A stretch of DNA of 47,760 nt from Acidobacteriota bacterium (GTDB lineage Bacteria > Acidobacteriota > Terriglobia > Acidiferrales > UBA7541). The notes beneath the pieces are model-generated. The model saw only the letters and a program-made list of their open reading frames with translations. It did not search any database and was not told the origin of the DNA. The position numbers were made by a program, and so were the translations under genes. This document shows, piece by piece, positions 43,554 to 47,585 of this stretch. Each line of letters opens with the position of its first letter. Within the stretch, counting starts at the first letter, position 1. The DNA lies in contig QHYZ01000093.1 in NCBI GenBank assembly GCA_003225295.1, positions 1-47,760 on the forward strand, read 5' to 3'.

Positions 43554-44087
43554 TCACGGCAAATGGCGGCCCACTGGCTGCGCAGCCAGAACATCCTTAA
43601 TGCTATCGATCACCAAGTCAAGTTGATCGACCAATACAATGCCAGCGACTTGATGAGGATGCTCGTGGTGGTACCATAGCACAAACAACCCGGCGATTGC
43701 CTGTCCGGCTAAAATGTAGGGCGGGCGTTCACCACCATTTTGGAGCCGTGCATTAAGATCGTGCTGACCTGCTTAATCGTGTCCCATTCCGGTCCGGCGT
43801 CGCTCCACTCATCGCCAGCACGATCGTATGAGCACACACGCGTAATCTTGGCGACCTCGGGCTGCACAAGCGCCCAGTCAATCGAAAAGGAGCCCCGCAC
43901 CACTTTTCAGAACCACGGTTGGACTGCCATCTCCAGTGCAGTACACGTGCAGCTTGCGACCACCAACATCCACTAGCTTTCCAGGAGGGACTGGTCGAGG
44001 CTGGTCTACGGCCTGCTCTGTCATTGCAGGTTTCTCAAACGCCACTACCAGGGCAAGGGCAGCAGCGTATGGAAGTAACCTAGTCAT
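43554..44087 (-). pseudogene. Exported alpha/beta-hydrolase, frameshifted at two places
   Basis: ATG 44087, behind GGAGGAA, starts a protein with a signal-like segment (LLPYAAALALVVAFEKPA) and VDVGGRKLHVYCTGDGSPTV, the beginning of an alpha/beta-hydrolase. At the G-run near 43893 the frame breaks and continues as GSFSIDWALVQPEVAKITRV, CSYDRAGDEWSDAGPEW. After DTIKQVSTILMHG it breaks again, and a third frame reads GERPPYILAGQAIAGLFVLW, HQVAGIVLVDQ, and stops at 43554. The nucleophile elbow, normally GHSIGG, is GQAIAG, so even a repaired gene would lack the Ser. The start overlaps the stop of the upstream permease gene by eight bases, so it was translationally coupled to it. Confidence 0.75.
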
Positions 44088-45666
44088 CGTCGTCTTCCTC
44101 CCAATTTGTCCGACGCGGAAGAAATGTCAATTGAGAACCGGAGAAAACCTCTTCGCGTTCTCCAAACAGGGCGCTCCATGAATCGTCCAAATATGTCCAG
44201 CGTTCTGAATCAACGCAGCTCGGCTGCATGAGCGGTATATGCAGAATGCCGTGGCCTCCATCGCAGACCAACTCCGTTCCACTTCTTTCCAGAAAAAAGT
44301 CTCCGGCGCTCCTCAAATTCACTTGTGTTCCAAGACGTTTTAGGCAGGAGCGGCAGCGGCCAAGATGGTCGCGAATGGACCATGCGAGTGCCATTGTTGT
44401 TCCAATCCAAAAGAGCCACATCGCTCCTGCACTCATAACTGACTGCGTACTCCCGCCGCTTCCGAGCCCCGCCAGGTGAACTAGGTCAAGGCAAATGACG
44501 AGTATCACCATCAGCAAGAGAGCGCTCTTGAGAGCAAAGAACATCCACCAGTGGAAGCCATCACGCACATTCCCGCGCGGACCAGTGATAGCTAGGCGCG
44601 CAACTGGCCGCCACATGAGGATGAGAAGAATTAAGAATGCCAAGGCAAACCACGTCAGACATGATTCCAGAAACTCGTACTCCAATTCCTTCACTGAGAG
44701 GATTCCAAGCCTCGTGTTCAGCGGCATTGAACTTGCTCGGTTCATGGAGGTTTCGAGTACTTTCTTAGCCTCTATCGGATCTACGCCCGCAGGTATGCGA
44801 AGCAACGCACCAGGCCATTCGTACATCGGAAGCAGTGGACGCGAACCCGTCCCAAACGGAGTGAGCACGCCAACTTCGCGCGCCGCGAGCCGGCAATGTG
44901 GCGGGAGAACACCGATGATCTCGACCCGCCGGCCGTCAAGAAACAACGATTGCCCTACAACATGCCTATCGCTATGGAACTGACTCCTCCAAATCGCATC
45001 GCTCAGCACTATGCAGTTTCCACAGGTTGGCAACTCTGATTCTTGAAACCCTCTCCCGAGACTCGGACGAACACCGAGAAGCCCAAATAGTCCAGGTGTA
45101 ATCCTCGCGCTGAGAATGCTTTCCGTTCCCGACGGACCTCGTACCAGGCTCGGTCTCCATGCGTAAGCAGCAACCCCCGTGATCAATGGAATTTCCTTTG
45201 ATAGTTGAAAGATCCTGTCGCGCAGAAGCTCGGGTGCTAACCAGGGAGATCGGCCCACGACAAAGACAGTTATAAGGTGTTCTGCATCTGTATAAGGAGG
45301 AGGAGCAATGAGTTCGGAAAAGATTGAAGCTGGGTCACCGGCAAGGAACACCACCAGCACTGCCAGGATCGCGAAGATGCAAAATCGAGGCGTCCGTGGC
45401 CATTCATGAATGAAACTGAGAAATGCAACACGATTGAAACGGTGCCAGGTGGCATCTGCAAATGCCCCCCAACAATGTCGCAGTAGTTCTTGCTCGGTGC
45501 GCTTGCTCAGCCGCCCAGATTCCACGAGAAAGTGACACCAATGCCAGACTTCTCCTTCCCATTCCCGGAGCCACTCCACTCTCTGCCGACGCGGAACAAT
45601 CCAGCTCGCTAAGCGGAGTACGTGATTGCAACACCAAAGCAACTTTTTTAATCGGCGCTCGCCCAT
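44080..45666 (-). CDS. ADOP-like orphan permease (MacB periplasmic-core type), shortened
   Basis: 528 residues from ATG 45666, with TAGGAGAG ahead. The N-terminal cytoplasmic part (WLREWEGEVWHW) is usual in acidobacterial permease-like proteins. Next come one membrane helix (FCIFAILAVLVVFLAG, about 95-115), a MacB-PCD-like periplasmic core (about 120-320: ARITPGLFGLLGVRPSLGRG, IVLSDAIWRSQFHSDRHVVG, RRVEIIGVLPPHC), then three hydrophobic segments (about 330-445) and a soluble C-terminus with CRSCLKRLG. The orphan permease family typically has about 800 residues with two FtsX units; this one has only one core. No ATPase gene is adjacent. It is 9 bases from the PadR gene, so it is the regulated target. 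Confidence 0.8.
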   Translation of the reverse strand: MGERRLKKLLWCCNHVLRLASWIVPRRQRVEWLREWEGEVWHWCHFLVESGRLSKRTEQELLRHCWGAFADATWHRFNRVAFLSFIHEWPRTPRFCIFAILAVLVVFLAGDPASIFSELIAPPPYTDAEHLITVFVVGRSPWLAPELLRDRIFQLSKEIPLITGVAAYAWRPSLVRGPSGTESILSARITPGLFGLLGVRPSLGRGFQESELPTCGNCIVLSDAIWRSQFHSDRHVVGQSLFLDGRRVEIIGVLPPHCRLAAREVGVLTPFGTGSRPLLPMYEWPGALLRIPAGVDPIEAKKVLETSMNRASSMPLNTRLGILSVKELEYEFLESCLTWFALAFLILLILMWRPVARLAITGPRGNVRDGFHWWMFFALKSALLLMVILVICLDLVHLAGLGSGGSTQSVMSAGAMWLFWIGTTMALAWSIRDHLGRCRSCLKRLGTQVNLRSAGDFFLERSGTELVCDGGHGILHIPLMQPSCVDSERWTYLDDSWSALFGEREEVFSGSQLTFLPRRTNWEEDDDD

Positions 45667-45675
45667 CACTCTCTC

Positions 45676-45993
45676 CTAGCGACGCTTGCTCTTTTCAGCA
45701 GTAACGAGTTGTTCGAAGAGCGCGTAGCGCTCAAGCGCCTTGGCCAGCGTCTCCTTTCCTTCCCGGGTCAGTCTGTAATATTTGCGCGGCGGTCGCTGTT
45801 CAGCGAAGGCGGTGCGTTCTCCTTCCCAATTGGATTTGATCAACTCTAGTTGCTGAAGGCGCCGAAGCGCAGGGTAGACGGTACCGCTCGGGAGACCAGT
45901 AACGTCCATTATGTCGAAGCCATAGCTGTATCCAGATCTGATGGTCTGGAGCAACAGCGCCGATGTGTACGACAGTTTGGGGGTATCGTCCAT
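45676..45993 (-). CDS. PadR-family transcriptional regulator (acidobacterial type)
   Basis: 105 residues. The winged helix starts SYTSALLLQTIRSGYSYGFD; IMDVTGLPSGTVYPALRRLQ is the recognition helix region, followed by the wing RPPRKYYRLTREGKETL and a short C-terminal helix. PadR repressors act as dimers and release DNA on ligand or drug binding. The start ATG 45993 has no ribosome site; it is preceded within four bases by the operator palindrome, so the mRNA is nearly leaderless. The permease gene follows closely. Confidence 0.92.
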   Translation of the reverse strand: MDDTPKLSYTSALLLQTIRSGYSYGFDIMDVTGLPSGTVYPALRRLQQLELIKSNWEGERTAFAEQRPPRKYYRLTREGKETLAKALERYALFEQLVTAEKSKRR

Positions 45994-45996
45994 TTT

Positions 45997-46017
45997 CTAT
46001 GTAGCAATGCTACATAG
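45997..46017. promoter_or_regulatory. PadR operator palindrome
   Basis: CTATGTAGC (45997-46005), spacer AAT, GCTACATAG (46009-46017): a perfect nine-base inverted repeat matching the ATGTAGC...GCTACAT kind associated with acidobacterial PadR genes. It ends three bases from the ATG at 45993 and covers the -10 box on the minus strand. Confidence 0.75.
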
Positions 46018-46035
46018 GGGTAGACGACATGTCAA
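46007..46035 (-). promoter_or_regulatory. PadR promoter overlapped by operator
   Basis: On the minus strand, TTGACA (46035-46030, perfect -35) is followed by a 17-base spacer and TAGCAT (46012-46007, four of six matches to TATAAT). The -10 lies inside the operator, so repressor binding would block RNA polymerase. Transcription would start about ten bases before the PadR ATG, with no room for a ribosome site. Confidence 0.55.
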
Positions 46036-46127
46036 GCTAGCGACGCCAGCCGCGCTACTAGCGTGCCCCCCTTTAGGCCCATTATAGGGTCCCGAACGAG
46101 GATTTTGTTCTCGTAGCGCTTTCCTTC

Positions 46128-47585
46128 TTAGGCCGCTTTCAAGCCGACAGCCTCTACGAGATCGTCCAGCGCCTGAATGACGGCAGTATATCGACGATCG
46201 AGATCGCTGATCTTTTCTTTTGGGATAGATTCGTCAGCGACAAAAGGCTGCAGAATGCCGGCAGTCAGCGGAGCATAGATTTTTTCATAAAGCTTCAAGA
46301 ACACCAGGCAGATTTGATAGCCGTGGGGGAGAAGCCGGTAGCGGCGGGAATGAGGGATCTTTTCCACCAAACCCTTGGCGCGCAGCTTCCACAGGTCATA
46401 ACGGAGAGATCCCAGCTTGTACTCTTCCGGTGTCCTCCGGAGGGCCTGCAGGGTTTGCGGGTATAAGTCGCGGGTGGTGAAGGTGCCTTCGGCGGCGAGG
46501 TAGCAGAAACGCACCAGGGAATGCATGAGGGCCAACTGTCGGGGCTGATCCAGCTTCAGACCAGGGATGCGTCTGCCGTTAGGAAGAAGCGTGGGCTGGG
46601 TGAGTTGGCGAAGTTCCTCGTGGTCCACAAAGGTTTCCAAAATATCTTGCTGCACCTCCAGATAGCGGTCGATGATGCCGTTTAGCTTCTGCCGCAATTG
46701 AGGAAGATTCGCCACGGCCTTGCCAATGCCGTAATCGGTGGAGATATTGTTGGTCGCAGATTCGGTGCGGAGGAGGAAGCGGTCGCGGACGTATTGCTTG
46801 AGGAAGCCCTTGCGGTAGTGGCTGCGGATCACCGGGTTGGGTAGGTTCATATCCTCGATTACCGTTTGGAGCTTGCCGGCGTGATGGCGAGTGATGCGGC
46901 GGCCGAAGATCAAGGTGAGTTTGTTGGGTTGACCGATGGAGCGATTGGCGTCGAGGAGCCGTTGCTCGAGGGCATCGACGGCAGCACGACGACGAAAGAT
47001 GAGATTGTCGCAGAACTCCACCTGCGCAAAAAACAGCCGGTGCTGAACGCCGGCGTGCTTTCTCTCCTCGGCAGTGAAAAAGGGCGTGAAGCGGGTCAGC
47101 CATTTCTGGGCACAGGTGAGCAGATCGTCGGCGGTGAGAGAATCGGCGAGTTTCTGCAGGGTCTCAGGATCGGAACACTGCAAGAAGGCGTTAGCGCACT
47201 GCTGAAAGCGAATGCCACGCTCCTGCATGCGCAGGGCCAGCCAGTAATGCTGATTGAGACAGACGCGAGCGGAGAAGGGAAAATAGGGGCACACCCGTAC
47301 GAACATTTGTCCCCAACGGGAGTCTTGGACATAGAAGTTGTATTGGTCGACCCAGCGCCACTTCAGCTCCAGATGCCAACGATCATCTTTTCCGATGGCG
47401 GTCATGATGGTGGCGGGCTCGCGCGCTTTGATGATGGCCACGGCCTGATCGGGTTGGGCATGTCGGAAGTAGCGTTCCACGAAGTCATCGCGCCGGCCTG
47501 GGGGATCTTCTTGAATGGGTACACCCCATTTCTGGGAGCGGTTCTTGACCCAGTTGTGGTACTGCGTAGCGATATCGCGCAACAC
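46128..47585 (-). CDS. Large conserved protein of unknown function, N-terminus possibly beyond this start
   Basis: At least 485 residues from GTG 47585, and the same frame is open further up to 47723 (stop TGA 47726-47724), where FDYRCFDRILLHAAIQPFQ and FFWTYRQIYPVSR look like true protein. An ATG at 47716 opens MLCVS out of frame; dropping two bases would give ML-RFDYR, so either a CTG at 47711 starts it or there is a frameshift. The protein is rich in Arg, Tyr and Gln, soluble, without signal peptide. Long blocks such as LKWRWVDQYNFYVQDSRWG, FPFSARVCLNQHYWLALRMQ, TLIFGRRITRHHAGKLQTVI and LPHSRRYRLLPHGYQICLVF suggest a single conserved family; the last block (LRYDLWKLRAKGLVEKIPHS) looks like a winged helix. 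I recall it as a hypothetical family repeated in related genomes. No known function or transposase motif. Confidence 0.7.
   Translation of the reverse strand: MLRDIATQYHNWVKNRSQKWGVPIQEDPPGRRDDFVERYFRHAQPDQAVAIIKAREPATIMTAIGKDDRWHLELKWRWVDQYNFYVQDSRWGQMFVRVCPYFPFSARVCLNQHYWLALRMQERGIRFQQCANAFLQCSDPETLQKLADSLTADDLLTCAQKWLTRFTPFFTAEERKHAGVQHRLFFAQVEFCDNLIFRRRAAVDALEQRLLDANRSIGQPNKLTLIFGRRITRHHAGKLQTVIEDMNLPNPVIRSHYRKGFLKQYVRDRFLLRTESATNNISTDYGIGKAVANLPQLRQKLNGIIDRYLEVQQDILETFVDHEELRQLTQPTLLPNGRRIPGLKLDQPRQLALMHSLVRFCYLAAEGTFTTRDLYPQTLQALRRTPEEYKLGSLRYDLWKLRAKGLVEKIPHSRRYRLLPHGYQICLVFLKLYEKIYAPLTAGILQPFVADESIPKEKISDLDRRYTAVIQALDDLVEAVGLKAA

Follow-up and report, generated by a model that had tools for sequence, protein, structure and literature searches.

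A candidate PadR operator inside a predicted near-leaderless promoter of an Acidobacteriota bacterium and its half-site upstream of related PadR genes

In the genome of an Acidobacteriota bacterium, a short gene encoding a PadR-family regulator is preceded by a palindrome lying over its putative promoter, which raises the question whether the regulator governs its own gene from a site that leaves hardly any room for a leader. The stretch of DNA analysed, 47,760 nucleotides in length, is called the window here. Its relevant features, with the corresponding hexamers of two close relatives (loci L004 and L035, with PadR proteins 86-87% identical to that of the window), are the following.

46030-46035, minus strand: -35 hexamer TTGACA, outside the palindrome; TTGACA in L004 and TTGACG in L035
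46007-46012, minus strand: -10 hexamer TAGCAT (4/6), within the palindrome and spaced 17 nt from the -35; TAGTAT in L004 and TAGCAT in L035
45997-46017, no strand assigned: candidate operator palindrome CTATGTAGCA-A-TGCTACATAG, a PadR-type box ATGT-N9-ACAT with a half-site conserved in the family
45994-46000, minus strand: predicted 5' leader of about 7 nt, placed from the -10 with a start assumed 7 nt past it; no Shine-Dalgarno word
45676-45993, minus strand: PadR-family regulator of 105 aa (PF03551), with recognition-helix stretch GLPSGTVYPALRRL
44080-45669, minus strand: co-directional membrane protein of 529 aa, with a MacB_PCD-like core and a CxxC...C..GHG tail; start at GTG 45669 or ATG 45666
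43709-44087, minus strand: remnant of a broken gene, with interrupted frames

An earlier note on this DNA had described a 9-3-9 palindrome covering the -10 and ending just 5' of the start codon; this description is correct, and the repeat extends to a perfect 10-1-10 inverted repeat (21-mer), separated from the PadR ATG (45993, minus strand) by 3 nt. On the minus strand, TTGACA is followed by 17 nt, TAGCAT, TGCTACATAG, AAA and ATG. By itself, such a palindrome is unremarkable in a window of this size, since 20 dinucleotide shuffles of the window gave a mean of 0.5 palindromes with arms of at least 10 and a gap of at most 5. In the 8.13-Mb genome it is present in perfect form once, and allowing two mismatches yielded 1 place compared to 8 for the reversed control. 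The TTGACA-17-TAGCAT promoter is of the sigma70 type, scores 10/12 and is the sole promoter-like match in 43600-46200; since 1.1 such matches are expected in shuffles of this stretch, the score alone is weak. The note's statement that there is no ribosome site holds, as no Shine-Dalgarno-like word of at least 4 bases precedes the PadR ATG. The -10 ends 13 nt before this ATG, predicting a leader of about 7 nt and a messenger that is near-leaderless rather than strictly leaderless. A literature search on transcription start sites mapped by dRNA-seq in Acidobacteria found no paper.

The regulator matches the PadR winged-helix domain (PF03551) with 48.2 bits, above the gathering cut-off of 27, and the acidobacterial model TIGR03433 (padR_acidobact) with 44.5 bits, below the cut-off of 101.8. 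The membrane-protein gene starts 6 or 9 nt after the PadR gene and is preceded by AGGAG, overlapping the PadR stop codon (read by eye). Its product scores 93.4 bits against the ADOP model TIGR03434 (cut-off 622.3), the best stretch covering model positions 18-284 of 803, and resembles a shorter relative of ADOP; in its structure model (mean pLDDT 63.9) the tail is unreliable. Next to the CxxC...C..GHG tail, which possibly binds metal, the proteins of this membrane family carry an N-terminal WxxEW..E.WH-like motif, and the MacB_PCD and ADOP models match them partly. The unit had been proposed to comprise PadR, an orphan permease and a former hydrolase. The permease can be specified as the probable shorter ADOP relative mentioned above and the interrupted frames of the third gene are present; its pieces matched no Pfam family, and the putative hydrolase identity goes back to a resemblance of the remnant to an alpha/beta hydrolase N-terminus. 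A 20-residue match lies at the corresponding place in L035. Upstream of PadR and co-directional with it is an ORF of 485 aa (46128-47585, minus strand), present as a single copy in the genome and without Pfam or NCBIfam match.

To get more insight into the conservation of the site, we collected PadR relatives from named genomes (80 loci among the matches listed, with 197 candidates encoding a relative) and from 396 genomes of the phylum, 46 of which, including the window's own, contained a relative and from which the best loci only were fetched. Loci were picked by protein and not by the presence of the octamer. Removal of four duplicates with identical upstream DNA (L036, identical to L004, and L055, L082 and L103) left 107 non-redundant regions; L001 is the window again. 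The octamer CTATGTAG/CTACATAG was found within 200 bp upstream of the start or just inside it in 96 of these, related sequences being counted as if independent. It is missing in exact form from 11/107 regions (10 of the 104 with a usable protein), several of which have a one-base variant; this variant, CTATATAG, lies at most 40 nt from the start in 6 regions. In the 104 regions outside the window clade (the window and its two close relatives), 159 octamers are present in the 15,390 bp upstream of PadR, compared to 7 in the remaining 728,858 bp of the loci. A second half CTAC follows with N4 spacing in 71 of these 159 sites and with N5 spacing in none. The N4 gap of the relatives amounts to ATGT-N8-ACAT, the register of the published PadR box, and the N5 gap of the window clade to ATGT-N9-ACAT.

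The symmetric N9 form is limited to the window clade (3/107 regions), in which L004 and L035 retain TTGAC, the spacer of 17 nt and, apart from a single change in either, the palindrome, while the farther-upstream DNA has diverged. The earlier expectation that the palindrome is kept upstream of related PadR genes was borne out for the half-site and not for the full palindrome: CTATGTAGN5CTACATAG is confined to the window's genome among the 396, being absent from the other 395, and conservation of the whole palindrome was rejected. When this N5 palindrome was scored over 16 positions, most relatives were only weakly apart from mononucleotide shuffles. The family signal is an asymmetric site, of which the perfect palindrome of the window is a private version. 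The asymmetric form CCTATGTAGN4CTAC occurs 22 times in the 396 genomes, 13 times beside PadR genes of the subfamily; this total means little, because the reversed control gave 17, and it is the position beside PadR that constitutes the signal.

The promoter layout differs among the relatives, with the start codon taken as the nearest start before the conserved motif, which is oddly placed in a few cases (L052, L058, L092, L104). In 58/107 regions (class A) the end of the octamer lies 11-18 nt from the start; 51 of these 58 have a -10 of at least 4/6 whose end is 5-8 nt upstream of the start, and TTGTCA is the best -35 in 24 of those 51. A -10 ending so close predicts transcription at or next to the ATG, that is, a leaderless messenger. 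Class B, 12/107 regions including the window and L004, has the octamer end at 1-8 nt and the -10 end at 10-17 nt before the start (12/12), and class C (15/107) has the left octamer only, including L035, with a right octamer containing one mismatch. Another 8 regions have other layouts and 14 none. Shine-Dalgarno words of at least 5 bases occur in 7/15 class C and 3/58 class A regions, indicating that leaderlessness is not universal; words of 4 bases occur in 32/58 class A regions, a count to which the operator contributes through its own AGGT. A -10 of at least 5/6 ending 5-8 nt before the start was found for 50/106 PadR starts compared to 6/574 other ORFs of at least 200 aa from the same loci, a crude control in which the first ATG of the frame was taken as start. 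The position of the -10 thus predicts a leaderless mRNA in about half of the relatives; the window, with its 4/6 match at 13 nt, falls outside this group. Conservation and position together support the very short leader for the window that had been proposed as a nearly leaderless transcript.

A relative of the membrane protein lies directly behind PadR in 85/107 regions (101 have at least 800 nt downstream), although these proteins are not all of one kind, L054 encoding one of 948 aa with MacB_PCD and FtsX domains. The RCxxC...C..GHG tail is found in 43 of the 68 regions with at least 2 kb downstream and is invariant in nine aligned proteins. On the other side, a divergent ABC ATPase gene is present in 62 of the 100 regions with enough upstream DNA (7 regions being too short), and 59 of these 62 carry both a left and a right octamer, compared to 6 of the 38 regions without this gene, two of which are the window and L004 with octamers overlapping in the palindrome. 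This association suggests that the left operator serves the divergent ABC transporter. No ABC gene lies beside PadR in the window clade. In a poorly resolved tree of 105 columns, the neighbour of the window clade, with support 85, is L039, in which a divergent ABC gene is combined with one octamer; this placement is tentative, L037 being nearer to the clade than L039 by tree path. Behind the divergent ABC ATPase, L048, L062, L079, L105 and L039 contain an ORF of 549-603 aa, and the two of these ORFs compared with Pfam (L048, L039) matched no family.

The recognition helix of the subfamily is near-invariant: the motif GTVYP..RRL is found in 86/104 members (L068, L092 and L104 being excluded from these counts as well as from the tree, and L017 being known as identical to L016), and the remaining 18 deviate mostly at its final residue or have I in place of V. 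A helix change accompanying an operator change was looked for and not found, the 18 non-matching proteins differing at the motif end or in V/I. We infer from the shared half-site and helix that the PadR of the window recognises its N9 site. The window's genome contains 69 PadR-domain matches, and 65 paralogues were examined, three of the 68 others (C280:54-275, C138:25279-25407 and C24:6594-6815) being left out. Translated in six frames, the 60 stretches containing these 65 paralogues show no GTVYP..RRL, and the octamer accompanies 1/65 of the paralogues, on which ground we rejected the idea that the PadR genes of this genome all share one operator. The scan of the genome's PadR/ADOP genes that the earlier note had advised did not return the palindrome elsewhere, the site being unique. 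Several of the genome's own PadR genes (L116-L175) have other short palindromes near the start, e.g. CCTATAG...CTATAGG and TCCTAG...CTAGGA, which suggests private operators; some of these near-start palindromes include the ribosome-site word AGGAG. A comparable near-start promoter was found for 5 of the 54 testable paralogues.

We consider it likely that the palindrome is the operator of PadR as an autorepressor, placed inside a near-leaderless promoter; the operator over the promoter of the regulator's own gene, as proposed before, is supported by conservation and position. Inverted ATGT/ACAT halves 8-10 bp apart, taken as the mark of a PadR operator, are found both in the window (ATGT-N9-ACAT) and in the relatives (N8). 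A different regulator might read the operator and control the PadR gene together with other genes, which we regard as unlikely. In its favour, the site CCTATGTAGHAWWC has 18 matches in the 15 Acidobacteriaceae genomes with a subfamily PadR (reversed control 0), 10 of them adjoining PadR. The other 8 are placed at gene starts or close to them; two of these (L217, L221) overlap early codons of a script-called ORF, and for one (G197 C4) a weaker match to PadR is found at a distance of about 2 kb. Judged by their sequence, the genes at these extra sites are presumably TIGR03435-like, hydrolase-like and an ABC ATPase, among others. Against such a regulator speak the uniqueness of the site in the window's genome, the 13 of 22 sites adjoining the PadR subfamily in the phylum scan, and the 28 Acidobacteriaceae genomes without a close PadR relative (G314 with a 41% match), which contained 4 CCTATGTAGHAWWC matches, 3 of them inside ORFs (control 2). 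The site may govern a small set of other genes in the Acidobacteriaceae. Half-site copies were seen upstream of other, presumably TIGR03435-like, outer-membrane-like, hydrolase-like and ABC ATPase genes at L201, L216, L218, L219 and L220, in genomes with a subfamily PadR, and at L211 (G443) behind TTGACA, in a genome for which no close subfamily PadR relative was found; the gene downstream of the latter copy we take to be ADOP-like from its sequence.

The palindrome would also fit an RNA hairpin just before the AUG, with a farther promoter driving the gene, since it folds well as RNA (-16 kcal/mol for a 58-nt stretch, z -3.6) and TATAAT is present at 46086-46081 and the unrelated co-directional ORF at 46128-47585. 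However, the sites of the relatives are mostly asymmetric (GTAG-N4-CTAC core) and take varied places relative to the -10 and the start, and the upstream TATAAT is kept in neither L004 nor L035, which makes this hairpin quite improbable. A chance inverted repeat, or the end of a mobile element, could be considered on account of the 0.5 such palindromes expected per shuffled window; yet one appeared in the 200 bp upstream of the PadR gene in only 4/2000 shuffles of that stretch, the palindrome is kept in L004 and L035, the half-site is enriched in the relatives and the genome holds a single copy, so that we give this origin hardly any credence.

The proposed operator can be compared with described systems. 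ATGT-N8-ACAT is called the canonical PadR box with a spacing of 10 in the lmrCD operator (PMC5428041), and the half-site spacing is given as about 8-10 (PMC3506622). Like LmrR/lmrCD of Lactococcus lactis (PadR-s2), the window would have a small repressor of the PadR type that controls both its own gene and a transporter through inverted ATGT/ACAT halves (PMC5428041, PMC3506622). Unlike LmrR, with spacings of 8 and 10 in its two sites, the spacing is 9 in the window and 8 in its relatives; moreover, the site of the window contains the -10, ends 3 nt from the start codon and is followed by no Shine-Dalgarno word, and no ABC transporter lies beside the PadR gene. With the TIGR03433/TIGR03434 pairs, the window shares the gene order, PadR coming first and a membrane protein of the MacB/ADOP type second, but both proteins score far under the cut-offs and the membrane protein is shorter, with the CxxC...C..GHG tail. 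Leaderless genes with a TANNNT box some 12 bp ahead of the start have been predicted to make up 9.7-19.4% of the genes in three Acidobacteria genomes (BMC Genomics 2011, PMC3160421). They share with the window a -10 box near the start codon; in the window, this short stretch additionally holds a candidate repressor operator. Among the matches listed, no treatment of the operators of acidobacterial PadR proteins was found in the literature. Control by a PadR operator is of a known kind, here in an unusually tight layout, and with half of the palindrome conserved upstream of related PadR genes the site is very probably the regulator's own switch.

With the palindrome as PadR operator, a PadR dimer would lie across both the -10 and the predicted point of transcription start, by which RNA polymerase would be kept from binding or opening the promoter, and PadR would hold down the expression of its gene together with that of the presumably co-transcribed membrane-protein gene. 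A ligand might weaken the binding, as described for LmrR, upon which the promoter would open. The message would start about 7 nt before the AUG, PadR being translated without a Shine-Dalgarno site and the second gene with one. What the sequences show is the palindrome with the promoter elements, the lack of a Shine-Dalgarno word, the conserved half-site and the link of the latter to this PadR subfamily; the identity of the binding protein, the repression, the co-transcription, the start point and the ligand are the parts that we infer.

For the phylum as a whole, a wider picture is possible, which we put forward tentatively and with some doubt. The PadR subfamily, spread over the phylum, might keep one operator half-site while the promoter moves around it. 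In about half of the regions, the operator would lie between -35 and -10 and the mRNA would be strictly leaderless; in others, including the window, it would lie over the -10, leaving a leader of a few nucleotides; in still others it would precede a leader, frequently one with a Shine-Dalgarno word. Most testable relatives would have two operators, for a divergent ABC transporter and for PadR; in the window clade, without the ABC half, these two might have been fused to the perfect palindrome ATGT-N9-ACAT, still read by the same repressor, and in the Acidobacteriaceae the site may additionally govern a few other genes. Insertion of one base in a single site would account for the palindrome equally well as operator fusion.

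One PadR subfamily hereby gains a concrete candidate operator, accompanied by a recognition helix that hardly varies, and a promoter layout that can be tested. If true, the locus would offer a small model of repression, with the promoter, the operator and the start codon crowded into about 45 bp and without a leader on which other control could act.
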